Assembly (NCBI GenBank): GCA_015179125.1
Contig: WHVA01000288.1
Span: 1 to 64,000, forward strand
Direction: 5' to 3'
Source: Gautieria morchelliformis
Taxonomy: Eukaryota > Basidiomycota > Agaricomycetes > Gomphales > Gomphaceae
DNA: 64,000 nucleotides
The notes under the pieces are model-generated. The model had not been told where the DNA came from, searched no databases, and saw only the letters and a program-made list of their open reading frames with translations. Below, piece after piece: positions 17,572-62,892 of the stretch; the first letter of the stretch is position 1; every line of letters starts with the position of its first letter. The translations under genes and the position numbers were made by a program.

Positions 17572-18393
17572 ATGTTGTTCTCGTACCACCCTACCGACTT
17601 GTCCCTATACGGGTACAAGCTCGCCGACGGGGGACCTCGTGAGTGGCAGCTCACGACCAAGGCCAAGGCGAGGTGCGTGCGCTGCGAAGAGCGCGACTAT
17701 ACGTGCCTTCGGGCCGTTAGCCTCGACTTCGGCCTCGCCGACCAGGGTGCCTGCGTGTGGTGCAGGACATGCTCCTTGGGCTGTAGTATAGCCCAAGGTC
17801 GTCGCAGCAAGGTGACCCCAGGAAAAGGTCAGGCGAGTGCCGTGGGCAAGAAGCGAGCGAGGAGCGAGGATACCGAGGATGGACCGAGGCCGAGGAAAGA
17901 GGCCAAGGTTCGGGACGAGGTTGCAGAGGACGACGACTCAAGCGACTGGGTCGAGAGGAACCTTGAGACGAGGGTGGAGCGGATGGAAGCGAGGTTGAGC
18001 GAGGAGAAGGGTAAGGGGTCAGAGGGAGCAAGGCATAGTGAGGGGAAGGAAACCGAGGTGGAAAGTCGGAGGGCGAAGAAAAACAAGAAGACGAAAAGGT
18101 CGGAGCAAAGTGCGGAGATGAGGGAGTTGATAGCGGCAGTGAGGGACATGGGACAGAAGGTTGGCGAGGTTGGGGAAAGGGTGTGTGAGTTGTTGGGGGA
18201 GTTTAGGGTGGCGAATGATAGGATGAATCGGGCGGATGTGGAGTTTATGAGGATAAGGAGGAGGCGGAATTATTTGAAGCGGATGCAGGGGGCAAGGGAT
18301 TTGGCGGATTATGGGGGACATGGGGGTCTGGTGGAGCGAAGTAGCAGTAGTAATGAGGAGGAGTCAGGCGAGGGTAGCGAGGAGAGCGAGTGA
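17572..18393 (+). CDS. Antisense accessory gene of chromovirus F: Zn2Cys6-type, charged protein
   Basis: An intact 273-codon gene on the strand opposite to pol, between the pol stop (18531) and the 3' LTR (17137). Residues 35-71 hold six cysteines spaced C-x2-C-x6-C-x15-C-x2-C-x6-C (C35, C38, C45, C61, C64, C71; an extra C67), the spacing of a Zn(II)2Cys6 binuclear cluster with a somewhat long central loop. Basic nuclear-signal-like runs follow (GKKRAR, AKKNKKTKR). Next is a charged, probably helical region (~125-245) and an acidic tail (EEESGEGSEESE). The start is ATG at 17572; a shorter N-terminal leader in another frame (17489) is less likely. Function unknown. DNA binding is an inference from the cysteine spacing. 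A gene of the same design lies at the same place in chromovirus G. Confidence 0.7.
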   Translation: MLFSYHPTDLSLYGYKLADGGPREWQLTTKAKARCVRCEERDYTCLRAVSLDFGLADQGACVWCRTCSLGCSIAQGRRSKVTPGKGQASAVGKKRARSEDTEDGPRPRKEAKVRDEVAEDDDSSDWVERNLETRVERMEARLSEEKGKGSEGARHSEGKETEVESRRAKKNKKTKRSEQSAEMRELIAAVRDMGQKVGEVGERVCELLGEFRVANDRMNRADVEFMRIRRRRNYLKRMQGARDLADYGGHGGLVERSSSSNEEESGEGSEESE

Positions 18394-18530: not shown

Positions 18531-20130
18531 TCATAGGGCAGTCAAAGGTCGTGGCTTGGCCGGGTAAGACTCGTGGAAGTCAGTGACCAGCTCCGAAGCA
18601 TGATCAAGCTCGGAAGCAAGGATCCACGAGGTTTCTTCTTCGGTACCTTCGTAACCAGTCCACCTAACAAGATAGAGTAACTTGCAGCTCTTGCATCTGT
18701 TATCGATCTTCGAATAGAGCATTTCGGAAACCTCAAACTCGGGTTCGCCGTCGATAACGACTGGGGGTGGAGGCGGCTGAACTCGGTTCGGGATGGTGTT
18801 GGGCGAGGCTGGTTCTAGCATAGATACGTGGAATACTGGATGGACTGAATGCATGTGTTCTGGAAGTTGAAGGGTGAATGAGTGAGTACCCGCTCGGGAA
18901 ATGATCTCAAAAGGACCCAAAAACTTCTCAGCGAGCTTCTTGGTAGGCCTAGTTGTTCGGAAGTACTGTGCCTTTACAAAGGCAAGGGATCCAATTTGGA
19001 AATCAGGAGCGGGTTTGCGGCGAACATCGGCCGAGGCTTGGTAGGTCTTCTGAGCCTCGAGGATGGCGCGGCGAAGTTCTTGGTGTAGCTCATCCAGGTC
19101 AACCACGAAGTCTCGAGCTCGTGCCGAGGCGAGGTCGTGCTCGGGGTGGACTGCGAGGTTCGGGTGGTAACCTTTATTAGCAAAGAATGGGGATATGCCG
19201 GTGGTTGCGCTAGGTGCATTGTTGTAAGCGAACTCGGTGAGGGGAAGGAGTGAAGCCCAATTGGACTGTTGATAGTTGCAGTATATCCTGAGGTACTGTT
19301 CCAAGGTCTGGTTAGCACACTCGGTTTGACCGTCACCCTCGGGATGATATCCTGAGGTAAAATGCAACCGCATGTCCAAGGCTTTCCCTAGAGAACGCCA
19401 GAAGTACGAGATGAACTCGGAACCCCTGTCCGAGGTGACGTGCAAGGGAACTCCATGCTTGGAAAAGACATGAAGGACGAAGAGGCGAGCGAGCTCTTGC
19501 GAGGTTATCTTGTCGGTGGTTGGAATGAAGATAACCTGCTTAGTGAAGCAGTCAACAATCACTAGTATGGAGGTGAACTTGGATGAAGGGGGAAGCTGCT
19601 CAATGAAATCCATAGAGATGGAATTCCAAGGCTTCTCGGGAACTGGAAGTTGTTTGAGGAGACCATAGGGCTTGTGACGTTGCAGTTTGCTTCGCATACA
19701 AGTGATGCACGTCTTGCAATACTCCTTGACAAAGGATCTTATCCCTGGCCAAGTGTAGTCTCGTCGGATCAGCTCCAAGGTCTTGTTGACCCCGAAGTGT
19801 CCCGAGAGAATGGGATCGTGCTTGTATTGCAGGATGCGAAGTCGAAGGTCTAGGTTCGGTTGTCCAGCTTGAGAAAACCCTCGGGGTCTGTGGTCCACCT
19901 CGGGTAATTAACCAAGCCGAGGTGTGACTTGGCTATGGGGTCCGAGGGGAGGTTTGCTAGTATGTCAGCTCGAATCTGCTCGGTATCAAGCAGTGAAGCG
20001 GCTCGGAGTATGACGGGAGCGAGGTTAGTAGCTCTAAGGGACGATGCCAGCTGGTGTTGGGTAAACACTGGCCGTAGGTTCTGTGGGTTTATGGTGGCAT
20101 AGTCGCTATTCCCCTCTTTAAGGTAGACAT
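18531..20130 (-). pseudogene. Chromovirus F integrase with chromodomain
   Basis: The 455-codon frame 18531-19898 holds an integrase zinc finger (HFGVNKTLELIRRDYTWPGI, CKTCITC), core aspartates in 'SMDFIEQL' and 'SDRGSEFIS' and glutamate in 'DGQTECANQTLEQYL' (Arg to Cys next to the Glu). A C-terminal chromodomain follows ('LLYLVRWTGYEGTEEETSWI'). Another frame, 19850-20068, gives the linker between RNase H and integrase. Chromodomains in this position are known to steer chromoviruses to modified histones. A frameshift near 19860 and a UGA near 20137 disable it. Confidence 0.85.
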
Positions 20131-28335: not shown

Positions 28336-28517
28336 ACGTTTACCAAACCCCAAGAAAACGACACTCTGTTCACAATTCTACCTATAGATTCAACTCCCTT
28401 AATTAATCTCCTCTCAATCCTCACCCAACTCCCTTCGGCTCATTCTACACCTGCAACCGACGCCTCTTCAGACGCTCCGAGCTCCCCATCAACCTCTTCG
28501 CCCCCCCCTCGATGGCT

Positions 28518-29186
28518 AGTAAGGGCACTCACTCAGGGATTGTGCATCATACTTGGCCATCATCCTGACCATACCCCTTGCTATCCGTGCCCTCTTACCT
28601 TCCCCATCAGGAGCGAAGCAGATGCATAGTCGCCTGACTGTGACAGGCTCTACAGCTTTCACCGACCCAGGCACACCCCCGGCTGACTGCGAATCAGAGT
28701 AGGGGACTTCGCCGAATGCATCACCAAGTTAGCATAGTCATCACAAGAATACATGAGAAAACCATACCTTCCGGGTCCTTCTTAGTCACCTCCCTTCCTT
28801 CGCACCCCTTCGACGTCAGCGTAAAGATCAGGGCAGGAGTCGAATCAATATCCGCTTCTGTGGGTACCGATTCCAATGTCGATGCCAAACTCTCCAACCA
28901 CACCCTCGTTTTCTGAATCTCCTTCGCCAGCTCGTCTACTTCGGACGGTCTTTCGAACATTTGGTCAGCCACCGCCTCGGCCTGCAGCATTTTCCGAAGC
29001 TCCTCCTAGACCTCATCATTGAGCGAACGAAAGCTAATAAAGAAAAAGGCTGGTACTCACTTGGACTCCTGCCGCATCGACCAGCCACTGCTCCACTTCC
29101 CCTCGAAACTCTCCCCGAAGCTCCGGCCTAACCCTCGACACGACCTGCGATCGATCGAGGAGAGCTGAGTACCCAGGTGTCGTCAT
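28518..29186 (-). pseudogene. Antisense gene model in chromovirus C with half of a Zn2Cys6 motif
   Basis: On the strand opposite to pol, 3' of the pol stop. A consistent spliced model: exon 29061-29186 ('MTTPGYSALLDRSQVVSRVR'), intron 29006-29060 (GTGAGT...TAG), exon 28768-29005 (helical 'EVDELAKEIQKTRVWLESLA'), intron 28687-28767 (GTATGG...CAG), last exon from 28686. The last exon encodes 'CAWVGESCRACHS', then reaches '..RRLC' only after a one-base shift. The result, C-x6-C-x2-C-x6-C, resembles the second half of the cluster in chromovirus G ('CDQCHDRKRRC'). The first CxxC pair was not found. Stops are at 28607 in frame and 28518 in the shifted frame. Probably a decayed member of the same antisense gene family. 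Confidence 0.4.
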
Positions 29187-29240
29187 AAGGGCAGTACGCT
29201 TGGCCGGGGTGCTTAGTTGGGCCCCATAACCCCGTTCCAC

Positions 29241-29780
29241 GCTGCGTTTTTAAACAAAACAAAGAAGTCGTGCATGGACCATGCTGTATGGGATCCTGCT
29301 TTGCCGGTCAAATAGGAGAAATTCCATGTATTTTCGAAATAGTGACCTTAAAATATAGCATACTGGTATTGCTATCATTGGGGATGAACTATTTAAACTT
29401 CCTCTAATTTCCTACCATTTTTTCGCCATTTCTAATGAAGTCTTTGGCTCAAAACACTTCTATTCTGTTGCAGCAGAGTTATGAATCCACATGTATCCAC
29501 AACTCTGCTTATTCAAACTCCGACGCGCGCGAGCCCGAACCCTGTGGACACTTACGCACCCACAAATTCTGGCCAACCTACCGGTTCGGACTCAGCACTC
29601 TGGAAATAGCAATTTATTCCCAAGCCTCCACAACACAGTTTATGCAATACAAACTCTGCCCAACCTATGCTACCATAGCAACAAGGCTATGCTAGGCTGT
29701 GCTGTGCCATAGCTACACTCACATTGGGTCCACAAGATACAACAACAATCTCTTGGTAGTTTAGCTAAGAATCCCCCATG
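29241..29780. other. No recognisable gene
   Basis: Sequence between the antisense gene model and the repeat-rich promoter block. No coding similarity. A possible LTR-like start 'tgtgctgtgcc' near 29698 may mark the left edge of the next block. Confidence 0.3.
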
Positions 29781-29990
29781 GTCACATGACTATCACATGA
29801 CCTCAAAAACAGCTCAAAGTCACCTGATCATCCACAGTCACCTGACAATCACCTGACCTCAAAGTCACCTGATTATCTACAGTCACCTGACAATCACCTG
29901 ACCTCAAAGTCACTTGATTATCTACGGTCACCTGACAATCACATGACACCATCACATGACTTTCCTTCGTCACATGATAATCACATGAGC
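29781..29990. repeat. Minisatellite of E-box-like sites (CACATG/CACCTG)
   Basis: About 14 copies of [AG]TCAC[AC]TGA within 210 bases. The central part is a 45-bp tandem repeat: 'cagtcacctgacaatcacct' begins each unit, with two full and partial units at ~29837-29945. CACNTG is the E-box bound by bHLH proteins. It precedes the heat-shock-type element and TATA box, so an enhancer-like role is plausible but inferred. Confidence 0.7.
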
Positions 29991-30967: not shown

Positions 30968-32000
30968 TGTCATGACCGGTCTATTTCTCCTACCGCACTG
31001 CTTCTATGTTCCCTCTCGTCACTCCCTAGCATCTTCGCCAGAGTTCGCCGCACCTACCGACCACTCCCCCTCCACGTCCACTCTACCCACTGTTTGCCCC
31101 ATTCTCCGAACCGCTATTCGCTGCTCGTGCATTTAGCCAGCAGGCACGCCATCAAATATGATCGATACCATTCACACGGCATGATGGTTCATCATTAACC
31201 CCATCATCTTCATAATCCAACCCCATTGGGCGTTCATATGGCCAAAGTGTGTTCGCAGGACGTCCCTTCCATAGGTCGTGCGGGATCAACCCAGTAAACG
31301 AAGAGTCCGTGCAGGGTAGCATGTATGCGGGTCCCAAGACATGGTTTTGTCCATAAGTGCCTTCACTCCCTTTTACTCTCCGTCGTTTCATGTTCGCATT
31401 CTTCCCTCACTCTATTGTATGTTTATTCCATCTACTTAGTATCATGACTGCGCACCCCTATCCAACCCTGACTTGTGACAGCCTCTTTCCTATTCGCTGA
31501 TACCTTACGAGCATTTGATATAAGTAGTTTACATTCGCATGTATATTCCCCAGTTCAATTATCATACGTCGTTCATCTTGTGCAAATTTGACCTCGCTGT
31601 GGTCATCGTCTTAAAGCCTTCTCTTGGATATTTCCATCTTCAACTAGCAGAGGACTTGGGTGCCACTGGTGAGTTCTCATACTTCATCTTCATTACCTTA
31701 GCCTTCGAACCATTTTCTGTGCTGTTGGCAAAGGGCTCCGAAGGAGCACCTTCACCGGCGAGGGGATTGTCGCTACTTAGACAGCCCTTCCGTGACACCT
31801 TGCACATTGCATCGTCAAGTGCCACACGCCATTTCGCTACGACTGTAGATAGGGTGAGCCCCGTTCGGGCAACCCTCTTACCTTGTGAACATTCATTGGT
31901 TCACCTATTCGCCGAACAGCATACTTATTCGCACAAGTTATTCGGGCATTCGCTGTGTTCACTAATACACGATATTAATGCCTAAAAACCAATCTTGACA
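30968..32000 (+). repeat. LTR of chromovirus C (3' LTR, complete)
   Basis: 1033 bases, TGTCATGACC...AATCTTGACA. A TATA-like 'gatataagtag' lies near 31515. CTTCG/CGAAG words are dense ('gcgaagggctccgaaggagc'-type runs near 31730). No target duplication is seen (left ggtac, right ggcgt). Confidence 0.9.
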
Positions 32001-32102
32001 GGCGTGGCTATGGTAATTGGCGCGAACAGCGAGAATCGGTTGCCGAACATGACAATGGCGATCGGAACGAACACAAAGGTGGAGTGAGAAAATAGGAAAA
32101 CT
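32001..32102. repeat. 102-bp spacer, duplicated at 33237-33341
   Basis: The segment ggcgtggctatggtaattgg...aggaaaact lies between two inverted LTR C copies and is repeated at 33237-33341 with a single visible base change in its first 30 bases. Left junctions share 'ttgac' (LTR end ...cttgaca; other copy ...gtttgac), which suggests a microhomology join. Confidence 0.85.
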
Positions 32103-33136
32103 TGTCAAGATTGGTTTTTAGGCGTTAATATCGCGTATTAGTGAACACAGCGAATGCCCGAATAACTTGTGCGAATAAGTATGCCGTCTGGCGAATAGGT
32201 GAACCAATGAATGTTCACAAGGTAAGAGGGTTGCCCGAACGGGGCTCACCCTATCTACAGTCGTAGCAAAATAGCCCGTGGCACTTGACGATGCAACATG
32301 CAAGGTGTCACAGAAGGGCTGTCTAAGTAGCGACAATCCCTTCGCCGGTGAAGGTGCTCCTTTGGAGCCCTTCGCCAACAGCACAGAAAATGGTTTGAAG
32401 GCTAGGGTAACGAAGATGATGTATGAGAACTCACCGGTAGCGCCTAAGTCCTCTGCTAGTCGAAGATGGAAATCTCCAAGAGAAGGCTTAAGACAATGAC
32501 CACAGCGAGGTTAAATTTGCACAAGATGAACGACGTATGATAATTGAACTGGGGAATATACATGCGAATGTAAACTACTTATACCGAATGCTCGTAAGGT
32601 ATCAGCGAATAGGAAAGAGGCCATCACGAGTCAGGGTTGGATAGGGGTGCGCAGTCATGATACAACATAGATGAAATAAACATACAATAGAATGAGAGAA
32701 GAGGGAGAACATGAAACGACGGAGGGTGAAGGTGGCGAAGACACCTGTGTACGAAATCATGTCTTGGGGCCCACATATACACTGCCCTGCACGGGTTCTT
32801 CATCTACTGGGTTGATCCCACACGACCCACGGGTAGGACGTCCCACGAACGCACCCTACTCATATGAACACCAAAAGGGGGTTGGACCGAGAAGCTGATG
32901 GAGTTACTGATGAGCCATCATGCCGGATAGGGATGTCGATCGTGATTTGATAGTGTGCCTGCTGGCGAATGATGCGAGCAGCGAATGGTCATTCAGCGAA
33001 ATGCGAGGAAGGGTGAACAGAGGTGACATAGAGGAGGAGAGGTCGAGGTGGAGGGTGAAGCCGAGCGAACACTGGGGAGGAGTAGCGAAAGGGGAAATGG
33101 GGATAACAAGGTGCAGGAAATACACAGGTCATGACA
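32103..33136 (-). repeat. LTR of chromovirus C in inverted orientation
   Basis: 1034 bases, tgtcaagattgg...gtcatgaca on the plus strand. It is an inverted copy of 30968-32000, with very high similarity where compared (last 80 bases differ at two or three sites). No element body is attached on either side. Confidence 0.9.
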
Positions 33137-34070: not shown

Positions 34071-34752
34071 TGTTACGTATCGAGATTTCCACTAAGTCGG
34101 AACTGGAAAGGACAGCGGCTTCAACTTATAGGTTGCGCCCCCGATGAACTATCGTCCTAGGTATTTCGGAAATGAGCCGGAAGCCGGAAAGTACTGGACC
34201 AGAGGTTTGGTCGGAACTTGAGTCGGAACTGAGGCGGAAAGCGGAAGACCGAGAGACTGAGATCTTGCTAGACTCGCTGTGCTAAGAACAGGAGATGGAG
34301 CGAAGGAAATCAAGTATCGAAGGTGATTATCTGATTGCAGAATAACAGACATACATGAGGGGGTTTTTATACAAAGCGCAGAGCAACAAGTAATGGTGTT
34401 GTACTAAGCAAATTCCGGAGGAAGCGGAAGTCGAGTACAATGTGTGGGAACTAACTAATTGGGAACAATGGGACCACAAGGGGGGTTCAGGGTAAGGTAG
34501 AACAATGGCAAAGAACAAGGGGTCGGGAAAACATATCTGACAACGAACTACAAGGGTGACCGGATAGATGGTTTTGATGGATGGCGAGGTGGGTCCGGTG
34601 GGTCCGGGTAATAGAGTCGAAAGAACAAGGGAAATGTACAAGGGGCGGAATGGCGGAAATGTCGGAGGGGCGGAACGTGTGGCGGAACTATTGGAGAGGC
34701 GGAATGTATGGCGGAACTGAGGGTCGGAAGTCGGAAATGAACGGTCGTAACA
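34071..34752 (-). repeat. LTR of chromovirus G (3' LTR)
   Basis: 682 bases, TGTTACGTATCG...GGTCGTAACA. It contains attatctgatt at 34326-34336 and the TATA region beyond it. It differs from the other LTR by a ~12-base indel and scattered substitutions. The next bases, gtatctcccttct (34753-34765), are the reverse of the polypurine tract AGAAGGGAGATAC. Confidence 0.92.
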
Positions 34753-34874
34753 GTATCTCCCTTCTAAGGTCGAGCCCCGCGAGACCACAGGTCGGAATCA
34801 CGTGACCTGTGAACAAACGCGTCGGAGTTTGAAATATAGGCTGAAGGACAAACGCGTCTTCTCTCCATTCCATC

Positions 34875-36102
34875 ATGAGTGCCCCAGTAGATTTCTCTAA
34901 GATGTCCAGCGCGGAGATGAAACAGCACTTCGCTGATATGCTCGCGCAAAAGGAAATGGCCGAGAAACGCGAGGCTGAGGAAGCTGCGCGGAAAGAGAAA
35001 GAACGTCGGGAGAAGGAGCGGAAGGAGCAGGAGAGGAAAGAGCGCGAACGCCGCGAGGAGGAGGAGCGCGTCCGTGAAGAGAAACGGAAACGGAACGCGG
35101 CACGGAAGGCTGCTGCGGACAAGGCCGCTGCAGAGAAAGCGGCTGCGGAGAAAGCGGAAAGGGATCAGGTGAGTCGGAAATGTCCGGCGGAAATGTTCTT
35201 GAAGTTAACCAGAGTTCTTCCAGGATCATGTTCAGGACGAGTCAGAGTCAGACTCGGAAGGTTCGGCGGAAAGTACACCGACTCCGGAAGGAAAAGGGAA
35301 GCAAAAGGAGATTGCGACCCCGGTGAACCTTGTGGCGGAACGGAAAAGTCGAGCGGACGCATTCCAGAAGGCTCGAAAGGAGAAGTTGAGTCGGATGTTG
35401 GAACTCCGTGAACTGGGGCCGGAAAATCCCGCGACTAAGAAGCGGAAAACTCGGGACGGCGATGAGGAAAAGGCCCCATGTGACCCATGCGAGTCTAAGG
35501 GGGTGGATTGCTCGTGGTCGAGCAATCCACGGGAAACGTCGTGCGACCAGTGCCATGACAGGAAAAGGCGCTGCGTCGTGGACGGGTGCGCTTCGAGGCT
35601 GGAGCGAAAGAAACAGAAGGTTGAGGAGTCAAATCCGAAGGCGGAACCGGGACCGAGCGGAGGGAGGGCCGAGGTATCATTTCCGGTGACCGGAAAGTCG
35701 GCACAGGCGGTGTTGAATCGGTTCACCATGGCTTCTCCGCTCCTCGACATTGCCGGGTCGCTGAGGGCCATGCGGAAACAGCAGCGTGAAATCCGGGACA
35801 TCATGATCGAGATGGCCGAGGTTCAGCAGCATCAGGTTCTGTCGATTCAGAACCAGATGACTGTCATGTCTACCGTCCTGCAGCAGTTGACGCGGGAAAT
35901 GCGGTGGCGGAACGATCTGGTCCGGGACCGAATGGATGCGCGGCTTCGGGAGCAGGGAATTGGGGCGGAAGCTGGTCCGAGCGGTGGGGCGGAAACAAGG
36001 GAAAGGGTGGAAACGGAGTTGGTGAGTGTCGAGGTAGGAGAGGCGGAAAAAGAGCCGGAAGCGGAAGAAGAGGTCGAGGCGGAGACAATGGGGGAGGAGT
36101 AG
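34875..36102 (+). CDS. Antisense accessory gene of chromovirus G: coiled-coil, Zn2Cys6-type protein
   Basis: A two-exon gene on the strand opposite to pol, starting 123 bases from the 3' LTR and ending 130 bases before the convergent pol stop. Exons 34875-35168 and 35224-36102 join in frame across a 55-base intron (GTGAGT...TTCCAG), giving 390 residues. Residues ~20-98 are an almost unbroken Lys/Arg/Glu helix (EKREAEEAARKEKERREKER-type). C184, C187, C194, C205, C208 and C215 have the exact Zn(II)2Cys6 spacing C-x2-C-x6-C-x10-C-x2-C-x6-C, with 'CHDRKRRC' basic as in fungal zinc clusters. A second helical region (~255-335) and an acidic tail (EAEEEVEAETMGEE) follow. No disabling lesion is seen although pol is damaged. 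DNA binding and dimerisation are inferred; the role in the element is unknown. Confidence 0.78.
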
Positions 36103-36232
36103 GGTGTCGAAGTGACTTGTAATATTTTTCTTGAAGTGTCGGAAATTAGCGTAACGGAAATTGAATCGGATTTTAATAATGACTTGAGAACTGTAAGAAA
36201 GCAATGGGTGTCGGAAATGAGGTCGGAATTGA

Positions 36233-37690
36233 CTAGGGCGCGGAAATGGGGCCAGGCTTGTCAGGATATGACTTGTGGAAATCAGAGACGAGGTCAGAGG
36301 CGTGGTCAAGTTCCGTGGCGGAAATCCACGAAGTCTCTTCGTCAGTGTTTTCATAGCCTGCCCACTTGACTAGGTACTGGAGTTGGCAGCGGTATCTTCT
36401 GTCGAGCTTGGAGTTGAGAATTTCCGAAATCTCATATTCCGGTTCTCCGTCGATGACGACTGGCGGAGGCGGAGGTTGTTCTCGATTCGGAATTGTATTC
36501 GGAACTGCTGGCTCAAGCATAGAGACATGGAATACCGGATGTACTGCGCGCATATTGTCAGGAAGTCTGAGGGTGAAAGAACGACTGCCGGCCTTAGCGA
36601 TGATCTCATAAGGACCGAGGTATTTCTCAGAGAGCTTCTTCGAGGGGCGAGTGGTGCGGAAGTTTTCCGCTTTGACAAAGGCTTTGTCGCCTATCTCGAA
36701 TGCCGGTTGCGGAAGGCGTTTCCGATCGGCGGAAGTTTGGTATCTCTTCTGGGCAGCGGTAATGTTCTCTCGGAGGTGCTGGTGAAGGTCGTCAAGTTCC
36801 ACAACGAAATCTCGGGCTCTTGCAGAGGCGAGGTCGCGTTCAGGGTGGATGGCGAGATTCGGGTGGTAGCCCTTGTTGGCATAAAAGGGTGAAATTCCGG
36901 TGGTAGCGGAAGGCGCGTTGTTGTAGGCAAATTCCGCAAGCGGAAGAAGGTCGGACCAATTGCTATGTTGGTAGTTGCAATAGACGCGGAGATACTGCTC
37001 AAGGGTCTGATTAGTACGTTCCGTTTGTCCGTCTCCTTCGGGGTGATAACCGGAAGTGAAGTGGAGCTTCATGTCGAGAGCCTTGCCGAGTGTGCGGAAA
37101 AAGGAGGACACAAATTCGGATCCACGGTCGGAAGTGACATGGGAAGGTATTCCGTGCTTGGAAAAGACGTGGAGCACAAAGAGCTGTGCGAGCTGGGCGG
37201 AAGTTATGGTGTCGTAGGTTGGAATAAAGATGGACTGCTTTGTGAGGCGGTCAACGATCACTAGAATGGTATCATAGCCGGATGACTTAGGAAGTTTCTC
37301 AATGAAATCCATGGATATTGAATTCCACGGTTGTTCCGGGATCGGAAGTTGCTTCAGGAGGCCGTAGGGTTTGTGACGTTGAGGCTTGGCTCGCATACAG
37401 GTGGTGCATGACTTGCAGTAGTCTTGGACCATCGTGCGGAGGAGAGGCCAAGTATAGGTACGTCGGATTATGTCGAGGGTCTTGTTCTGGCCTTGGTGTC
37501 CTGAGAGCGGATGATCGTGGCTTTGCTGGAGCACGCGAAGTCGTAGATCGTTGGTGTCCGGAACGTAAATCCGGGACTTGTACCGGAGAAATCCGTCGGA
37601 ATCGAGGGACCATCCAGGACTGGTGCGGTCATCGAGGTGGGCTGCGGAGGTGGGGTCGGAACGGAGTGCGGAACGGATGTCGGAATGGAG
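36233..37690 (-). pseudogene. Chromovirus G integrase with chromodomain (nearly intact)
   Basis: 433 open codons to 37534, continuing upstream in the same frame to a stop at ~37692. HHCC finger ('HPLSGHQGQNKTLDIIRRTY', CKSCTTC). The DDE triad is intact: 'SMDFIEKLPK', 'SDRGSEFVSSFF', 'DGQTERTNQTLEQYL'. The GPY/F module 'KYLGPYEIIAKAGSRSF' and chromodomain 'LQYLVKWAGYENTDEETSWI' follow. It faces the antisense gene, whose stop is 130 bases away. The stop upstream fits a CAG-to-TAG change. Confidence 0.88.
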
Positions 37691-37693
37691 AGA

Positions 37694-39300
37694 CTAGGTG
37701 TCCATAATAATTGAGGCGCGGAGTAGCGGAAACTGCAATGCTGTGGCACGCAGGGACGATGCCAGTTGCTCAGTAGAGAATACTGGGCGGAAATTGTGCG
37801 GATTAACGCTGGCATAGTCGCTACTTCCCTCTTTTGGGTAGACGTCCCAACGTCTAGTGAGCGCGTCGGGTTTTGCTCCGAGCTTTCCGGGGCGGAAACG
37901 GATCACCATGTTGAACTGTGAGAGGTATTCAGACCAGCGGACTTGACGGCGAGTCAAAATCTTAGTGGTTGCAAAATACTCAAGGTTCTTATGATCCGTT
38001 ACAACGTCGATCGGATAAGTTGGACCTTCGAGGTAATGTCTCCAGATTTTGAAGGCTTCGAAAATCGCAAGTAGTTCCTTATCGTGGACGTCGTAGTTGA
38101 GTTCCGGGGCGGAAAAGGTGCGGGAATGAAAGGCGATCGGATGAATTTCTCCGTCGTCGGGTGAAATGATGGAAAGAATGGCGGCTAGCGCGTAGTCAGA
38201 AGCGTCGGTTTCGAGTACAAGTTGGGCATCAGGAATCCAGAAACCGAGTATGGGAGCCGTGGTGAAGGCCGATTTGAGGCTTCAAATGCGGAACGGCATT
38301 CCGGTGTGAAATTCCATGGGGCACCCTTCCTGGTGAGACGCGTGAGCGGAACAGTAATGTCGGAAAAATTATAAATGAAACGCCGGTAAAAGTTGGCGAA
38401 GCCAAGGAAAGACTGCACATCCTTAACACGTCGGGGTTCCGGCCATTCTTGAATTGCCTTGACCTTGTCCTCTGCCATGGTAAGACCTGTTGGAGAGAGG
38501 ATGTAGCCGAGGTATTCGACCGTGTCGCGATGCCATTCGCATTTCTCTGCTTTTGCGTAGAGATGGTGTTTGCGTAGACGGCGGAGTACTTCGCGGACAT
38601 GTTCCCGATGTTTTTCCGGTGTGTCGGAATAGATGAGGATGTCGTCAATGTAGACTAGAACGCATACGTCGAGGAGGTCGGAAAATACGTCGTTCATGAA
38701 TCGCTGAAAAGCGGCGGGAGCGTTGGTTAGACCAAAAGGCATGACAGTCCACTCAAAGGCACCGTAGCGGGTGCGGAAGGTGGTTTTCCACTCGTCACCT
38801 TCCCGGATGCGGACAAGGTGATAAGCGTGCCGGAGGTCAATTTTGGTGTAGATCTTCGCCCTGCGGGGAGTGTCGAGTAAGTCGGAAATGCGCGGAAGCG
38901 GATATTTGTCCTTTTTAGTGAGGGCATTGAGTCCGCGGAAATCGACGCAGAGGCGGAGAGATCCATCCTTCTTCTTGACGAAGAGGACCGGAGCGCCGTG
39001 CGGAGACAGCGAAGGGCGGATAAAGCCCATGTTGAGATGTTCATCGACGAACTCTCGGAGAGTAGGAGTTCACTTTGCGAAAGGGAGTAGATCGGTCCAA
39101 GGGGCGGAGATGCTCCTTCTTCCAAATCTATCTTCAAGTCGTAAGGTCGATGTTCAGCAGGTTTGTCGGCTTTGGCCTTATTGAACACGTCCGGGAAGTC
39201 ACGATATTCTTCCGGAACTGAGCTCATGTCGACCGGAGCGGAAGTCGAGGCGGAACGAGCCTTGACTGAAGCCGAATCGGAGAGGTGAAGCTGGAAAACG
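37694..39300 (-). pseudogene. Chromovirus G reverse transcriptase and RNase H
   Basis: RT start in one frame (39227-38980, 'YRDFPDVFNKAKADKPAEHR'), a one-base shift near 39070, then RT core (39030-38185: '[20 protein letters not shown]', catalytic '[11 protein letters not shown]'), another shift near 38280 at the RT/RNase H boundary, and RNase H ('[16 protein letters not shown]', 'KNLEYFATTKILTRRQ') to 37694. The motifs are intact; only two indels break the frame. Confidence 0.88.
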
Positions 39301-39381
39301 GTCGTATCTCTTGCCGTTGCAATACGCGGAAAGCGGTGGCGGAAACGAGCGCAATTCGAGGAGCTTCGAGGGGCGGAGGTG

Positions 39382-40059
39382 CTAAAGCGGGACCGGAGTG
39401 CGGAACTGAATCCACGAGCGGAGTTGCAGAAGAGGCCTGACCATCTTTGCAGAAGACGTCGGAATAGATGGAAGTTGATCCGGGGTACGGAACTGTATTT
39501 GACCCAATGCCCAGTTAATCGACGGATTATATCGGGTGAGCCAATTGTGTCCTAGTACAACGGAACAGCTAGCATCTAGCGGAGTAACGTAAAACGTAAC
39601 TTCATGGTTGTCCCCAGTAGCGAAACGGATAGACAGATCCACAACTTGGGAAATTCCCGTGTTGGAAGACCCGTCGAAAAGGCGGAGCGGAATAGTTGGA
39701 ATGTTGCGGGTCGGAAGTTTATGTTTCAAAACAAAGTCGGAATCGAGGAAACAATGAGTCGAACCGGAGTCGACCAATGCTGTAAACGGGGGTGCGGAAA
39801 TTGTGTCGGAAGTGAGCGGAACAGAGAGAGAGTCGGAGGACGAAAGAGCGGATGCGTTGAGTTTAACCTCGTTTGTCGCACGAATGGGGTCAACACAGCC
39901 CTCAGCTCGTGCGGAGGCCGGAGGACTGCTGACTATTTTTTTGAATCCGCAGCGGGAACCGCTTCGGATTTCTCTTCCGTCTTTGCTGCGCGGCCTTTGG
40001 CTTAGCAGCGGAGGCGGAAGCGCGAGTGCAGTCGCGAGCGACGTGACCTCCTTTGCCAC
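39382..40059 (-). CDS. Chromovirus G aspartic protease
   Basis: Retropepsin domain with 'TALVDSGSTHCFLDSDFV' (D-S-G), flap-like 'LRLFDGSSNTGISQVVDLSI' and the C-terminal 'VVLGHNWLTRYNPSINW'. It is in the frame of the first gag part and overlaps the end of the shifted gag frame (39902-40059). It should be made as part of Gag-Pol. Confidence 0.82.
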   Translation of the reverse strand: MAKEVTSLATALALPPPLLSQRPRSKDGREIRSGSRCGFKKIVSSPPASARAEGCVDPIRATNEVKLNASALSSSDSLSVPLTSDTISAPPFTALVDSGSTHCFLDSDFVLKHKLPTRNIPTIPLRLFDGSSNTGISQVVDLSIRFATGDNHEVTFYVTPLDASCSVVLGHNWLTRYNPSINWALGQIQFRTPDQLPSIPTSSAKMVRPLLQLRSWIQFRTPVPL

Positions 40060-41370
40060 AGAAGAGGCAAAGGTTGTTGTCCATGCGACGCTGGCGTTCT
40101 ACAGGGGTTAGTTTTCCGTCTTTCCCAAGTTTGTCGGAAAGATCCGGGGTGCTCTTCCGGGCGTTGGTGTTAGAACCAGAGGCCTGGTTGTTCCGAGGGG
40201 TGTTGTTGTTGTTCCGGTTGCCGGAGTTGGATCCGGAACTGTTGTTGTTGTTGTTTCCGGAGTTGGTGTTTCCGGAATTGGTCTTCTTCTTGTCTTTATC
40301 AGACTTCTTGTCGGAAGACTTGTCGTTCTTGCTCTGGGCGGAGGTTTCACGAGCAATCTCGGAGTGTCTTTCCCAGTAGCGCGAATCGATGGATTGGGCG
40401 AGGTTGCGGAGGTCGGTAAGGGTGGCGGGTTTTCCGACGCGGGCAATTTCATCCTTGATGCGGGATGGCAACCCATGTAAAACTGGCGTCGGAGTGCGGC
40501 TTCTCCCCATTGGACTCGAGGAGCGAGCTGCTGAAACGTGACGATATATTTAGCTATCTTATGAGTGTCTTTCATGCGAAGCTTATCGAGTTCATTTTCC
40601 GCATCGGCTTCCATATCAAATGGTCCGAAGTTGCTGCGGAGTTCGGAAATGAAATTGGGGTAATCGTCGGCCCAGTCGACGAGAGCGAACGGATCCATGA
40701 GGGCGGGTTCGAAATAGTCGAGCGCCGTGCCTCGGAGATAGGAAAGGGCATAATTGACCTTTCGTTCGTCGTCGGGAAAGGCGTCGGGACGATCACGGAA
40801 ATTGAGTTGAAGCTGAACCAGAAATGGCTGGAGCTTCTTGGGATCGGAACCGTCGAACTGATCTGGTTCGCGGACCTTAGTCTTGGGTCGTGGTGGTGCT
40901 TGGGCCGGGCGCTGGAGTTGTCCGGCTAGCATGGCGATGGCTTGTGCAAGATCCGGAACTGGCGCGGGCGGAACTGGGTTGGCGGGAATCTGAGGTGGAA
41001 TTGGAGGTGGAGGACCGCCGGGAGGACCGCCTGGGGGACCGCCGGGTGGGCCGCCATGAGGGCCGCCTGGAGGGCCGCCTGGAGGTGGTCCTGGTGGAGG
41101 TGGTGGTGGTGGAGCTGGGCGTCGGTATGACGCTGCTGTTTGTTCGCCGCTGCTACTCGTCGAATTCCCGTCGTAGTCGGGATTGTCGTCGGGATTAGCG
41201 TCGGGAACTTCTTCGAAACGTTGCGGAAAAGCATCGGAAAGCTCATCGTCGGCACGAGAGCTGCTGGAGGGTTCCGCGTGCCTTGGTGCTGCGGATCTAA
41301 GATTGCCAAAATAAGAGAGAGCTTCAACAGCTCCTGCTCGAGCTGAAGTAGCTGTGGTACGAGGAGGCAT
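39902..41370 (-). pseudogene. Chromovirus G gag with PG-rich domain and zinc knuckle
   Basis: Starts at ATG 41370, 20 bases from the primer site ('MPPRTTATSARAGAVEALSY'). Residues ~85-135 are a collagen-like run of Pro-Pro-Gly/Gly-Pro-Pro units. The Gag core follows ('FDGSDPKKLQPFLVQLQLNF'). A one-base deletion near 40475 moves the frame to 40510-39902. That part holds an Asn-rich stretch (NTNSGNNNNNSSGSNSGN) and the knuckle 'CLFCGKGGHVARDC'. Apart from the indel it is complete. Confidence 0.85.
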
Positions 41371-41390
41371 AGTGATAGTTATCGGGTGGG

Positions 41391-41401
41391 AATCAGATAA
41401 T
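41391..41401 (-). other. Self-complementary primer-binding site of chromovirus G
   Basis: Two bases inside the 5' LTR the minus strand reads ATTATCTGATT. This is the exact complement of AATCAGATAAT, found on the same strand in the LTR at 41670-41680, 34 bases after the TATA box (41708-41714), where the transcript should begin. In Tf1/sushi-group elements the first 11 bases of the RNA fold back on the primer site and prime reverse transcription. No tRNA-type primer site is seen. Confidence 0.75.
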
Positions 41402-41403
41402 AC

Positions 41404-42095
41404 TGTTACGTATCGAGATTTCCACTAAGTCGGAGCTGGAAAGGACAGCGGCTTCAACTTATAGGTTGCGCCCCCAATGAACTATCGTCCTAGGTATTTC
41501 GGAAATGAGCCGGAAGTCGGAAAGTACTGGACCAGAGGTTTGGTCGGAACTTGAGTCGGAACCGAGGCGGAAGGCGGAAGATGGAAGGCTGAGAGAGAGA
41601 CTGAGATCTTGCTAGACTCGCTGTGCTAAGAACAGGAGATGGAGCGAAGGAAATCAAGTATCGAAGGTGATTATCTGATTGCAGAATAACAGACATACAT
41701 GAGGGGGTTTTATACAAAGCGCAGAGCAACAAGTAATGGTGTTGTACTAAGCAAATTCCGGAGGAAGCGGAAGTCGAGTACAATGTGTGGGAACTAACTA
41801 ATTGGGAACAATGGGACTACAAGGGGGGTTCAGGGTAAGGTAGAACAATGGCAAAGAACAAGGGGTCGGGAAAACATATCTGACAACGAACTACAAGGGT
41901 GACCGGATATATGGTTTTGATGGATGGCGAGGTGGGTCCGGTGGGTCCGAGTAATAGAGTCGAAAGAACAAGGGAAATGTACAAGGGGCGGAATGTCGGA
42001 AATGTCGGAGGGGCGGAACGTGTGGCGGAACTATTGGAGAGGCGGAAAGAGTGGCGGAAACGAGGGTCGGAAGTCGGAAATGAACGGTCGTAACA
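41404..42095 (-). repeat. LTR of chromovirus G (5' LTR)
   Basis: 692 bases, TGTTACGTATCG...GGTCGTAACA. On the minus strand a TATA box (TATAAAA, 41708-41714) is followed by the predicted start AATCAGATAAT (41680-41670). Confidence 0.92.
41708..41714 (-). promoter_or_regulatory. TATA box of LTR G
   Basis: Minus-strand TATAAAA, 34 bases upstream of the predicted RNA start used for self-priming. It is also kept in the 3' LTR (near 34370) and in the old LTR near 5860. Confidence 0.65.
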
Positions 42096-42104
42096 ATCGA
42101 TCCC

Positions 42105-43886
42105 TTGAACGGGGATAATTACGCGGCGTGGCGCCGGCGGCTCGAGTGGATACTCGATGACTCAGATCTGTGGGACGTGGCTATCGGCAGGGAGACGGAA
42201 CCGAGACCGGCAGATGCCGACAACGTCACTGCGACCGAACAGCAGGAGATCGACGATTGGAGAAGGAAGGACAAGAAGGCTAGAAAAGAGATTTGCCTCA
42301 GAGTTGCCGATGAACAACTAGTTTACATCAATCAGACGATGTCTGCGTTTGCTGTATGGACTAGTCTACAAGCTATATTCGAATCTAAGGGAGCAGTGGG
42401 GATTGTAAATCTCCGAAGAGATTTCTTCCGGACGCTTGCTGAGGACGGCGCGAACATGGAGGAGCACGTACGCAAGCTCCGCGGCATTCAACAGGAACTG
42501 AATGCGCGGGGGCATTACATCAGTGACACCGAATTCTCGAACACGTTGCTGACGTCATTACCAGATTCTTGGTCGGCGTTTATTACGGCAGTAAACGCCA
42601 GTGGAGCCGGGACAACAGCTGATATATTAATAGCTCGGGTCCTCGATGAGGATCGAGCACGGAAAGCTGGATCGGCACGGCAGACGGCGCTTAAGGCGCA
42701 ACAACGTCACAGGACCAGGAAAGATGACTCAGGAGCAACAAAGGGAAAGTGCCGAAATTGCGGCAAGAAGGGTCATTACGTGAAGGACTGTTGGGCGAAA
42801 GGTGGCGGCAAGGAAGGCCAAGCACCGAAATGGTTCAAATCAGGGAACAAAGAAACAGTCAAACAAGCAGAAGAAAAAGACTTCGCATTTGTATCTAAGG
42901 AGGTAGCATACAGTGCTATATCCGCATCCGACTGGCTAGCCGATTCAGCGGCAACAACACATATAGCTCGAAGCCGAAATGATTTCGCTAGCTATGCCGA
43001 GGAACCATCGGAAATCGAAGGAATTTCACCCGGCGCGGTACTACATACACAAGGCCGAGGCACTATATACATGGAATTCAAGATCGGCGCCAAGACGAAC
43101 ACGATCGAGCTACGTGACGTCAAGCATGCACCGGATGCGCCGAACAACCTTATCAGCGTAGGGCGTCTGACTGATAAGGGCAACACAGCCACTTTTTCAG
43201 GCCCCGGCGTCGAATTCAAATCACGCGCCGGAGTTACCTTTGCACAGGGACAGAAGCGCGGGCGGCTGTTCTGTATGAAGGCACGGGTCACTCGATCAGT
43301 CGAGGCACGGGACTTTGCCGCAGCGGCAAAGGGACGGTCATGGGATAAATGGCACAGGATACTAGGGCACGTCAACATAAACTCCATAAAATTGTTGAAA
43401 TCTAACGACCTAGTTACTGGACTCGAGATCGACGAGTCAAACGAGCCGAGCCAGTGCAAGGCATGCATACAAGGCAAACGGCATGTGGAGCCATTCCCCA
43501 AAAGAGCCGAGGACACTGTAGAACAGGTCGGTGACCTGACAGTATCCGATGTATGGGGACCTGCCCAGACCGAGGGACCATCACGTGAAAAATACTTTTA
43601 TTCTTTCACGGACATCAAATCCAGGTACACGGTCATCTATTTTGGGAGCGCCAAAGATGAAGCGCTCAAACACTTCGAGACGTACAAGGCATTCCTCGAG
43701 ACCCAAACAGGTCAGAAACTGAAGAGGTTTCGCTCAGATAATGGAGGGGAATATGTCAATAAGAATTTCAAGGAATTTTGTGCAAAATATGGCATTATCA
43801 TGGAAACTACAGCTCCATACTCCCAGCCCAGAATGGAATTGCCGAACGACTCAACCGGACCTTACTCGAACACGCACGGGCAATGA
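42105..43886 (+). pseudogene. copia B3 gag, protease and integrase N-terminal part
   Basis: 593 open codons. Gag ('YAAWRRRLEWILDDSDLWDV'), CCHC knuckle 'CRNCGKKGHYVKDC', protease 'DWLADSAATTHIARS', and gag-pre-integrase region 'GRLFCMKARVTRS'. Integrase HHCC (HRILGHVN, CKACIQGK) and the two aspartates in 'SDVWGPAQTEG' and 'RSDNGGEYVNKN' follow. A one-base deletion in a run of C at ~43823 (three C against four in B2) moves the frame; codons after that to 43886 are out of frame. Confidence 0.9.
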
Positions 43887-46261: not shown

Positions 46262-47069
46262 CGCTGAAGCGTTGCGTTCGCTACAGCCAGATCACACAAA
46301 ATTGCCCGCCTGTTCAGCTGAACTGAAAAACTCGAAAATGCAACCAGAATTGGGGCTTGCCCAATTCTGATTGCTTTTTGAAATTCGAAATGCAATGGCC
46401 GAACATCCTCTAAATTTCCACGATGTAGTCACTTGCTTCTCCACTGACTGGTCAAATGGATTACGTAGAGACTACTTACATGAAGGACTGGCGAAGAGAA
46501 GACGATGTCGGACTTACAACTAAGCTTCAGAACATCGGCATCTAAGCTGTGGTTCCTGTCAGATTGAAATTTGACTTTCTATTCCGCCGTTTGAAATATA
46601 CCGTAAGCGTCCAACTGAGCGGAGCCGCCAGCCTTAACTGGTTTTCTTCCTTTTCTCACATCGTAGCTACAGCCTCATCACCACTCCTACAGCCTCTCTT
46701 TCTTAGCCACCGCGGAAACCAGCTCAATATAGCAGAACCTTTGCACCAAGCAAGCCAACGACTAGATCATTCCAGCGACGGATCCAACAGTGGCAAGGCC
46801 ACCAATCCCGCCCAGCCAAGCGGCTCGGCCTTCGCGCGCACCCTTGCTTGGCACGGTGGATGTGTGAGCGACTCTCCGCATTCTGCGTGCTCGGCGCTGA
46901 TGTATCCGACAGGGTCAGCCGAAATTGCGCGCCACGGGGCATGCAGGAGGATGGATTGCCGCTGTACGCGCTGGGGACCTCAGGCGTCAGGCCCAGGCGT
47001 CACTGATCGACCCAACGCGCCTCACTGCGGATACTGTGAGTCTACGAAGTAATCTATTCTAACATTATT
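46262..47069. other. No recognisable gene
   Basis: A 167-codon frame (46549-47052, Ser/Ala/Gly-rich, many Cys near the end) has no recognised domain and no splice or start context that supports it. Treated as non-coding or unknown. Confidence 0.3.
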
Positions 47070-47165
47070 AGTGTTTTTGCTACCAATAGATAGTAGCTCA
47101 ACTGAATGGTGTGCCTAATCTTTTCAATTCAGTTGGAGCTACCATCTATTGGTAGCAAAAACACT
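47070..47165. mobile_element. Short inverted-repeat element (MITE-like), copy 1
   Basis: 96 bases with long terminal inverted repeats: 'agtgtttttgctaccaatag' at the left pairs with 'ctattggtagcaaaaacact' at the right, extending inward to 'agctcaactgaat' / 'attcagttggagct'. It has almost no internal sequence. A related copy lies at 51064-51175. Confidence 0.75.
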
Positions 47166-48141
47166 GATCTGAATGGCAAGTCAAATGCGATATGTATTTT
47201 GGTAGATTCCGGATTGGTGCTCATACCAATCGACTGCTTCTCGATGGCTCCGAGGACAGTGTCCCCCGCGGTACGGCCGTAGGTCTTACGGCCACTTTAC
47301 GGTGTCACATGTACCGTATCCGTTCCGTACCCTGGATCACCTGGACGCTCAACGGTACGTACGGTGTACCGCAATCATACGGCCGTAATACGGGCATACA
47401 AGAGGTAAGGGGCAGTTGGGATAGTTGAATTTGCATTCTTAGTATAATGATCAGTGTACTAGTGTTGTGCTATGCTAGACGTGTGTAAGTATCTCTTCTT
47501 GGAGGGAGGTGTTTGAAGAGCTGAAACATCTGCGCGCATCCTCGGCGAGGGACATTAGAACAGAGGTAGAGACCGATCGATCAGTCACCGACGACCGTGT
47601 CCGAGACATACTACGTACACTGCGTATGGTGTCGGCTGCATATGGAGGTGACGGCAGTCACGTAGGTTCAGGTCTGCCTTGACAGGCTAAAGGGCGGATA
47701 CCTGCCCGTAATACGCGCGCGGCATGTACGGGTACGGTGCCGAGCCCTGTCCACCCTTACTCGCAACCACTACTGCTCCCTACTTGGAAACATTTTACAA
47801 CTACGCCGCGGAAGTCCACGTTATCAGGAATAGAAAAAGGAGTCTGTCGCTTGCTCTGCTGCGACACTGTCGAGTGCCATAGAGCCCTGATGCTGATGCC
47901 AATAGACTACCCCTTCTTCCCTGATGTATAACGCCCCCACAACGCCCTTCTTTTCACTTTTGGGTCGAGAAACACATGTCCCTGGATCCTGTGTATGTCT
48001 TTTCCCCATGTACCTCATGTCAGCCTCGGTACTACTTCTGGTTTCGGCATCTAATGTGGCTGTCTGGGTTTCTATTTCATCTCTGGAATTCTCGACAGTT
48101 CTCCTTCTCTCTGGCTTCACCCAGCTTCCGCTATTTGGACT
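47166..48141. other. Intergenic: palindrome-rich block and upstream region of the PLP gene
   Basis: 47260-47400 is rich in GTACGG/CCGTAC words, with the 10-bp palindrome TACGGCCGTA at 47272-47281 and 47378-47387. The rest contains no supported gene. 47900-48141 is pyrimidine-rich, in the usual position of a fungal promoter and 5' leader. Confidence 0.4.
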
Positions 48142-50099: not shown

Positions 50100-51063
50100 C
50101 CTTCGCATCATCTAACCTCGATCCGGGACACAAGATCACACATTAGTTTCCTTTAGTTTTATCGTCGTGTTTTGCCTGTTATGCTTAGCCTTGTGCGATT
50201 TTCTAGGAAACGTAATGCGACCATTTAATGGCTGTTCTTCCGTCTCATTCCGACAATCTGCTTTTCATTATAACCTGTAATACCTTTTAATGATAATGAA
50301 ATGGTATTAATTTCGTTTGCCAATTCCATGATCCAGTACAATAATTTTGAATTTGGATTGAAACAGCCGATCGATTTCGTTGCGCAGGGTCCAACCAGGG
50401 TATATATACCGAAGCTCGCGCGTCCAAAAAATCGAAGGTCCCCACTTGTTCTCAGTTTGCAGGGAACTTACTGATCTTTGGTTGCACAGCGTGCATCATC
50501 GGGGGTGTCTCTATCTAGGTCTTTAGTAACATCCGTGCGTGTGTACAGTACGTAAATCCTCAGCGGTACGTACTAATTACATAAGTACAGCCATGGCCCA
50601 TCAACAATAAGTTTACTGACTTTCTCGAATTTGTTCCCATGATTGACAATGTAGTCGGCCAAGCTCCAAGCATCACCCGTTTTACAAGTTTTAGCAAACT
50701 GCCACCAGTTATATATAAATTCAGGCCTGCGCTACCAGTGGATGTCAAAATTTTTCCTTCTTCGTCCTCCTACTCCTTTGATCGTACCAGTATTCTTATT
50801 ACGTTATAGACTAAATCTGAGGAATCGATCAGGACTTTTGGACTCGTAGCCTTCCCTTCTTCTTGTTGGCCCCCTAAGTTCGTTTTTCTTTATTTATGAT
50901 CTCTTGATTTGTCAACGACCAAACCCAAAAAAAAAATGGAATTCTTTTGGCCATGGGCTGCGACATCGATCTGCACCGTCAGTTTCTGACTCTAGTTAGT
51001 CTACTCTCTTAGACTCTACTGGACTTCTCTAGACTTCTCCTTCTCTCTAGACTTCTCTCTCTT
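50100..51063. other. Intergenic, no gene seen
   Basis: The 3' flank of the PLP gene and the 3' flank of the convergent P450. Short GTACGTA words occur near 50548-50573. No coding or RNA gene recognised. Confidence 0.4.
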
Positions 51064-51175
51064 GTGCTTTTGCTACCAATAGATAATATTAGCTCAACTG
51101 AACTGAATGGTGCGCCTAATATTTTCGATCCAGTTAATTCAGCCACAGACAATATACATTGGTATCAAAAACACT
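51064..51175. mobile_element. Short inverted-repeat element (MITE-like), copy 2
   Basis: 112 bases starting gtgcttttgctaccaatag and ending 'ttggtatcaaaaacact'; the middle 'agctcaactgaa...tgaatggtgcgcctaat' matches copy 1 at 47070-47165. More diverged, particularly in the right arm. Confidence 0.7.
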
Positions 51176-51342
51176 ACTCAGAGATTCAAGATTGGCTTAT
51201 TGATCAAAGCCATTTCAGGCAATTCATGATCAGATTAATTATCAATTATCATAGTCGAAATAGAAGTCACTGCTAACAATACAGTTCGAAATGCATAAGT
51301 TATGTGCAATGGTTAGACTGGAATGAAGCAAGGTGCCTGATC

Positions 51343-57800: not shown

Positions 57801-57989
57801 TTAAAGGGCCAAGGTGGAAGCTGTAAATGTTCCTGGGAGTGCTGAGCGCAACCCGGTGGAAGCAGCAGTCAGCAATAATGCTGACGTTGTCCCTCCCAAT
57901 GACAAGGCGAGAGCCCCTGTCAAGTGGGAGGATTTTGATGGCTCTGAACACCCGTACAGTCACCTACCGACTGGTTGAGGAGGAACTGA

Positions 57990-59720: not shown

Positions 59721-59745
59721 ACCTGGACTTACCAACGGACAGCGT

Positions 59746-62844: not shown

Positions 62845-62892
62845 GATGCAACGAGTCCTCCAAATGAGGACATTGATGAACCTCTACCGGAT

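Follow-up and report, generated by a model that had tools for sequence, protein, structure and literature searches.

Comparing copies of a chromovirus, here called G, across the genome of Gautieria morchelliformis, we found that a spliced frame lying antisense to its gag-pol is, to judge from the substitution pattern between copies, a conserved protein-coding gene under purifying selection. Its product is a probable DNA-binding protein, and the element that carries it is crowded with the word CGGAA. The reading that we favor, at a probability of about 0.45, is that a self-directed nuclear coiled-coil protein of the Zn2Cys6 type recognizes CGGAA across its own element, LTRs included, and keeps that element expressible, in the manner of VANC or as a self-specific transactivator.

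A two-exon antisense gene and its exchange between copies

The window is a stretch of 64 kb, and the assembly searched comprises 122 Mb in 1113 contigs. In the window copy of G, whose LTR pair differs at 16 of 681 aligned positions, the antisense gene occupies the strand opposite to gag-pol, between the stop of the integrase-chromodomain frame (36236) and the 3' LTR (34071-34752).

34071..34752, minus strand: 3' LTR of chromovirus G, reading TGTTACG..CGTAACA on the plus strand, from the LTR pair alignment
34167..34246, plus strand: CGGAA array in the LTR, 7 sites
34646..34736, plus strand: CGGAA array in the LTR, 8 sites, start spacings 8, 17, 12, 17, 12, 13, 7
34753..34874, plus strand: region upstream of the antisense gene, with CACGTG at 34799 and TATA at 34835; the presumed polypurine-tract side of the LTR falls within it, and it may act as a promoter
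34840..36220, plus strand: exchangeable cassette, break points approximate
34875..35168, plus strand: exon 1 of the antisense gene, charged N-terminal part, up to the donor
35169..35223, plus strand: intron of the antisense gene, 55 nt, GTGAGT..CTTCCAG
35224..36102, plus strand: exon 2 including the TAG stop, with the Zn2Cys6-like domain and the long C-terminal helix
35479..35589, plus strand: C-x2-C-x6-C-x10-C-x2-C-x6-C-x4-C, residues 184-220, second half basic
35737..35952, plus strand: long helix (exon 2 residues 172-243), probably a coiled coil (AlphaFold2)
36236..37693, minus strand: integrase with chromodomain (Pfam)
38188..39069, minus strand: reverse transcriptase frame (Pfam)
39385..40098, minus strand: protease frame (Pfam)
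40108..41370, minus strand: gag frame, whose last part overlaps another open frame and is probably past a frame change
41404..42095, minus strand: 5' LTR, from the LTR pair alignment

An earlier note on this DNA had described two exons encoding 390 residues with a clean GTGAGT..CAG intron, opposite to pol between the pol stop and the 3' LTR. The exons (34875-35168 and 35224-36102) and splice sites are correct, the placement is borne out in the window copy, and the two-exon antisense gene is confirmed as real and more interesting than first stated. We dropped the length of the open frame as an argument for a gene, since a 297-aa open stretch also arose in 84 of 1000 shuffled versions of the region (first-order Markov), and accepted the gene because of the comparison between copies, that is, splice sites, frames, cysteines and dN/dS.

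The genome holds at least 122 matches to the antisense gene (106/1060 candidates scored; such counts are lower bounds), and 50 antisense-gene loci with their flanks (L001-L050) were compared. A GTGAGT donor and an AG acceptor stand at the aligned place in all 50 copies; the spliced frame reaches at least 370 aa in 39 and is broken or short in 11. Both anchors were located in 48 copies, and in each of these the gene lies between the LTR end and the integrase stop on the opposite strand, the placement that the earlier note had proposed to check in database hits; in the remaining two the integrase anchor is absent from the stretch examined. Among 88 integrase copies of G scored (from 7361 candidates), 35 have a listed antisense match adjoining. 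Ten of the other 53 were examined and the cassette was present in all ten, some near cluster 4 (see below) but broken, some of other versions, and two with large internal deletions.

Between gene versions, dN/dS is 0.10-0.20 by NG86 (dS 0.65-1.79) and 0.13-0.24 by YN00; pooled inside the two large clusters it is 0.13 and 0.17, and for the closest within-cluster pair it rises to 0.28 (NG86) or 0.40 (YN00). Version differences pile up at third codon positions (for example 69, 59, 154). Across four version pairs, identity is 39-64% in the interior of the intron against 70-88% in the exons, and the upstream region (34753..34874) is 84-90% identical, above the exons of the same pair. Absence or neutral decay of the frame in other copies, for which the earlier note would have given up the gene reading, is thus not what the comparison returned, and the dN/dS check that it proposed points to purifying selection. 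Positive selection behind the divergence of versions is rejected on the low dN/dS of the comparisons made. Copies listed without stops looked at first like intronless sub-families. They do have the intron, however: across the large second cluster, 13 of 14 copies have one of 51 nt, divisible by three and free of in-frame stops. An intron may persist here because the gene is antisense and the genomic RNA cannot splice it.

The earlier note also took about four lesions in gag-pol, with none in the antisense gene, as a hint of selection or activity in trans. This argument is weak, since the contrast is that of the window copy only: open pol frames in other copies of G are long (up to 1361 aa, often 1257 aa), and the antisense gene is itself broken in some copies.

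At a distance of 10%, the 50 cassettes group into 7 clusters, with 30, 14, 2, 1, 1, 1 and 1 copies. Identity between the cassettes of cluster 6, which are window-like, and those of cluster 4 is 0.758, versus 0.954 and 0.971 within the clusters. For the LTRs of the same two clusters, identity is 0.971 between and 0.971 and 0.976 within, and for the integrase 0.979 between and 0.979 and 0.985 within. Cluster label is not tied to backbone distance, as 620 of 2000 permutations reach the observed difference for the LTR (42 copies) and 629 of 2000 for the integrase (43 copies). The cassette cluster of a copy differs from that of its nearest integrase neighbor in 7 of 45 cases and from that of its nearest LTR neighbor in 10 of 44, and the break points lie near 34840 and 36220. 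Since the backbones are alike between cassette versions, antisense units have moved between nearly identical elements, and by this pattern of identities the antisense gene is an exchangeable cassette.

The encoded protein

The six-cysteine spacing claimed in the earlier note is exact (Cys 184, 187, 194, 205, 208 and 215, with a seventh Cys at 220) and is present in 15 of 15 aligned exon-2 sequences, where all seven cysteines are invariant. We class the protein as Zn2Cys6-like only, because the Pfam profile Zn_clus (PF00172) scores 12.4-16.2 bits, below its gathering cut-off of 21. It is like the fungal Zn(II)2Cys6 domain in cysteine spacing and unlike it in the sub-threshold score and in having the basic stretch in the second half; in Gal4-type domains that stretch is in the first half. 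An AlphaFold2 model of exon 2, built on a 15-sequence alignment, has a mean pLDDT of 57.9. Residues 172-243 are modeled as one helix with a block pLDDT of 78 at the start and 93-97 thereafter, residues 36-63 as a second, shorter helix (mostly 67-89), and the cysteine region falls below 50 in a method that models no zinc and with only 15 aligned rows. The confident long helix supports a long coiled coil.

Searches for relatives returned little. Region 100-345 of the 390-aa frame gave 0 relatives among 1063 candidates in a protein collection, and four versions together gave one hit among 8000 scored, a chimeric G. morchelliformis model with 28 residues at 89%. The antisense protein of a second element in the window, element 2, gave one hit, in the same species, among 2943 candidates. 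Viral contigs yielded 73 pattern matches with 0 confirmed, and solved structures two matches (E 0.023 and 6.2), which we read as coiled-coil and chance. In the G. morchelliformis protein P0001, antisense exon 1 sequence is joined to a part assigned to Pfam PF20414, which we take to be DUF6698; either an exon may have been captured from the antisense promoter, or the gene model may be an artefact.

The CGGAA word in G and the words of related families

CGGAA occurs 150 times on both strands of 34071-42107 versus 28 expected, the highest z among all 5-mers, and its 15 one-base variants occur 8-53 times each. On the strand of the antisense gene, which carries 121 of the 150, the density is 23-25 per kb in the LTRs versus 0.7 in 1-21900 and 46300-64000. 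We ran 1000 synonymous-codon shuffles per frame, keeping protein and codon usage. The observed count was reached in 0/1000 for both strands in gag (where the shuffled stretch may have left the reading frame towards its end) and in integrase, for TTCCG in protease and in reverse transcriptase, and for CGGAA in the antisense gene. CGGAA in protease (313/1000) and reverse transcriptase (151/1000) was not significant, TTCCG in the antisense gene gave 153/1000, and RNase H was weaker (TTCCG 38/1000, CGGAA 116/1000). The same shuffles revealed no CGGAA excess in the tested frames of element 2, element 3 and copia. These results show that the CGGAA enrichment is explained neither by amino acids nor by codon usage.

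The sites are also kept: between versions, 41-89% of CGGAA sites are retained versus 18-38% for other CGNNN words. Retention over CGNNN words reaches p<0.05 in 9 of 10 directed comparisons, the exception being L036 to L049, and CGGAA sites outlast the one-base variants in 7 of the 10; within a version pair, the two directions are not independent. Moreover, the sites are phased. A start-to-start spacing of 12 nt occurs 15 times in the element versus 2.9 expected, 5 versus 0.7 in pol alone, 7 versus 1.4 in LTR plus cassette and 6 versus 1.1 in locus L047 (each 0/1000 jitters), and 3 versus 0.5 in cassette L036 alone (7/1000). Cassettes L031, L049, L050 and L033 alone have no spacing at the threshold of at least 3 occurrences and at most 30/1000 over 36 spacings tested. 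Weaker excesses appear at 7, 18 and 29 nt, the last with 7 versus 2.3 in the element (6/1000). Genome-wide, CGGAA phased at 12 nt gives 1791 matches, versus 4 for the reversed control and 7 for an 11-nt spacing, although this count comes from a few ancestral arrays copied many times and adds no independent evidence. At G000 C2:271307-271551, about 20 twelve-nt tandem units CGGAACGGAGTG overlap the beginning of a G-like integrase match that starts at 271518.

A 12-nt start spacing of CGGAA amounts to CGG-N9-CGG, and the CGG triplet is the classic half-site of Zn2Cys6 factors. One such factor, AmyR, is reported to bind CGGN8(C/A)GG or CGGAAATTTAA (PMC5468973).

Two further elements in the window carry antisense genes of their own.

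17572..18393, plus strand: element 2 antisense gene exon, C-x2-C-x6-C-x15-C-x2-C-x6-C; in the window copy, a frameshift affects an upstream exon that starts at about 17311
18534..19907, minus strand: element 2 integrase-chromodomain frame, 75% identical to G over 438 positions
28766..29005, minus strand: element 3 antisense gene, conserved exon, at least 150 genome matches (150/196 candidates scored) among matches listed down to 34% identity

The element 2 gene has at least 163 genome matches (141/567 candidates scored), most listed without stops. Its cysteine pattern is found in 5 of 6 copies, the sixth lacking the last Cys, and dN/dS is 0.18-0.33, with one of 15 pairs at 0.60. A profile comparison of the element 2 and G antisense proteins aligns the cysteine region only, at 1.9% probability, so that homology is unsupported. 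The element 3 gene, with introns at about 28500-29250 on the minus strand, follows an integrase that ends at 28335 on the plus strand and is 46% identical in the comparison with G; it looks unrelated, and its recognized exons contain no zinc cluster that we could find.

The over-represented words of elements 2 and 3 are other than that of G. The top word of element 2 is CGAGG (58 versus 13.7 expected), and that of element 3 is CGAAG (33 versus 6.8; 19 versus 6.0 in the integrase frame); neither is a CGG half-site. Densities per kb form a block pattern, with CGGAA at 9-19 in G, CGAGG at 8-19 in element 2 and CGAAG at 7-10 in element 3. There are exceptions to this pattern: CGAAG reaches 3.9-6.5 per kb in element 2 and CGAGG 6.2 in the element 3 antisense region, and CGGAA stands at 9.4 in the element 2 locus L061, where much of it (950-1505) precedes the second exon. 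Two copia stretches have a top z of about 5 for other words. The element 2 integrase frame is richest in CCGAG, with a z of about 3 that is within chance for a single frame. Where the G integrase has CGGAA, the aligned bases of element 2 read CCGAG at 5 of 10 sites, and where it has TTCCG they read CTCGG at 2 of 17; at 12 of those 27 sites the amino acids are the same in G and element 2. Most of the CGGAA/CCGAG cases would be NCG-GAA versus NCC-GAG, a synonymous change.

Several repeats were seen along the way. In L065, at about 590-850 on the LTR side of an element 2 copy, an expanded CGAGG-rich tandem repeat places that element's own word in a length-variable array. The window itself has a tandem repeat of TCACCTGAC/TCACATGAC units with a 45-nt period at 29802-29989 and a large inverted repeat at 31221-32880, with arms of up to 398 nt that are 92% complementary.

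A genome-wide search for three phased CGGAA brought up a further family, H, with an integrase about 42% identical to that of G and 40 CGGAA in its pol core versus 12.2 expected (z 8). We had predicted that H would carry an antisense gene; the prediction failed, as none is recognizable. One H copy, seen over its whole length (L072, L070, L073), has 491-nt end repeats, with pieces 99.7-100% identical. Its pol has a serine-rich tail and stops within the 3' LTR (the left repeat of that copy), leaving no room for an antisense gene. A second copy, L071, of which 3.3 kb were seen, looks like the first, with pol running into the 3' LTR and without a recognizable antisense gene. Relatives of the G antisense proteins were not found in these two copies, the best E values being 0.045 (L071) and 0.29 (L072). 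Thus, CGGAA is not confined to elements with an antisense gene, as by our own criterion a VANC-type word should be. Its reader would be a host factor, or else H makes use of the G protein. The case for the antisense protein as reader of CGGAA is lowered because H has the word without the gene, but not removed, because the sister families changed gene and word together.

Who reads the word, and comparison with known systems

The favored reading can be laid out as follows. A convergent promoter between the LTR and the ATG would give a spliced antisense mRNA, whose protein, presumably nuclear and zinc-bound, would dimerize through the long helix. The dimer would sit on phased CGG sites along the element (CGG-N9-CGG), with CGGAA as its putative target, and either LTR chromatin would be kept open or transcription activated, two outcomes that are indistinguishable here. 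In its favor, G and element 2, close in integrase, differ in both antisense protein and words. Against it stand the gene-less H, the sub-threshold Zn_clus score, the low pLDDT of the zinc region, the words CGAGG and CGAAG, which are no CGG half-sites, the exceptions to the word pattern, the strands and cassettes in which enrichment or phasing falls short, the further excess at 29 nt, and element 3, which has a word and an antisense gene without a zinc cluster in its recognized exons. The earlier note's proposal that the element carries its own regulator-like gene is therefore partly supported: what stands is an element-borne, antisense, coding gene with conserved splice sites, purifying selection and a Zn2Cys6-type cysteine pattern in a CGG-rich element. 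DNA binding, a spliced transcript, action on its own LTR and antagonism to silencing belong to a good hypothesis, with H as one clear counter-example. A broader proposal, which we hold as doubtful, is that fungal chromoviruses practice modular self-recognition. A spliced antisense cassette would encode a family-specific DNA-binding protein to whose word synonymous sites are tuned element-wide; the cassette would be swappable, sister families would have switched both parts, and the gene-less H would live off the protein of another family.

That G and H, so far apart in integrase, share CGGAA while H has no recognizable antisense gene would equally be expected if a host Zn2Cys6 factor read the word and several chromoviruses used it for transcription, the antisense protein acting otherwise, for example as a partner or competitor. 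CGG is indeed a general target of such factors, AmyR among them. However, the sites continue beyond the LTRs throughout the coding regions, where a promoter factor would not need them, and the sister families G and element 2 differ in gene and word, which leaves a host reader unlikely. If instead the element had captured a host transcription factor and kept it for LTR transcription only, CGGAA being a separate quirk of base or codon preference, the Zn2Cys6-like pattern and the dense one-strand sites of the LTRs would be accounted for. This we regard as improbable, since the enrichment outlasts synonymous shuffling on both strands of gag and integrase, is absent from the tested frames of element 2, element 3 and copia, and comes with no host relative beyond the one chimeric same-species hit among 8000 candidates scored.

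The antisense RNA itself might matter, tuning gag-pol or feeding small-RNA silencing, with the protein incidental; its position beside the LTR would suit such roles, which have been proposed for other elements (PMC7264820). The third-position changes, the dN/dS of 0.10-0.20, the invariant cysteines and the splice sites kept despite a diverged intron make this very improbable. Whatever the protein binds, cassette diversity could be kept by homology-based host silencing or by a self/non-self contest favoring rare versions, a view that draws on the two 76%-identical versions fully mixed with 97-98% backbones and on the 7 clusters among 50 copies. Yet the comparisons made show low dN/dS and no excess of amino-acid change, and the diversity could be a chance leftover of inter-family recombination; we see this as a long shot.

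VANDALs are DNA transposons, whereas G is a retrotransposon. In other ways G resembles the VANC/VANDAL system of Arabidopsis (Hosaka 2017, PMC5735166; Sasaki 2023, PMC10398659): the element encodes a protein, a short word recurs along that element, and related families have different words. A dense family-specific word is what we found in G. The VANC21 word YAGTATTAY lies in non-coding regions and is absent from two coding probes tested (PMC5735166), whereas CGGAA also fills coding frames. VANC binding and demethylation were established by experiment (PMC5735166, PMC10398659), and G is known here from its sequence; the likeness proposed is one of working principle and not of membership.

Antisense genes between pol and the 3' LTR, present in most copies, are also described for Grande (gene23), RIRE2, PvRetro13 and Retand (PMC7264820, PMC11963269), and the former paper calls the function of such LTR-retrotransposon genes unknown. 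The gene of G agrees with these aORF-3R genes in position and strand (48 of 50 copies), in presence in most copies examined and in conservation. DNA binding is predicted for the TRP28 proteins of Retand, and family-specific tandem repeats are frequent in the elements that encode them (PMC11963269). All four, however, are plant elements, Retand being a non-chromovirus; the Retand text available lacks the words zinc and intron, and neither a short element-wide word nor cassette exchange was found in these partial accounts (PMC7264820, PMC11963269). Among fungi, titles and abstract openings, which are not proof of absence, yielded no published Zn2Cys6 antisense gene or CGGAA-type word in a retrotransposon, and the text of PMC3248453 on LTR retrotransposons in fungi, as far as available, contains neither "antisense" nor "zinc". 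By description only, we liken G to Boty, a Ty3/gypsy element of the fungus Botrytis cinerea whose antisense gene also lies between pol and the 3' LTR.

That gene, brtn, was reportedly described by Zhao in 2011. In G, the sequence by itself points to a candidate target of the antisense gene, and the genome offers more than 100 matches and natural swaps of versions. If the protein binds CGGAA and alters its own element, self-directed regulation by a TE-encoded protein would be known from fungal retrotransposons as well as from plant DNA transposons, and a retrotransposon would be seen to hold binding sites for its own protein at synonymous positions.
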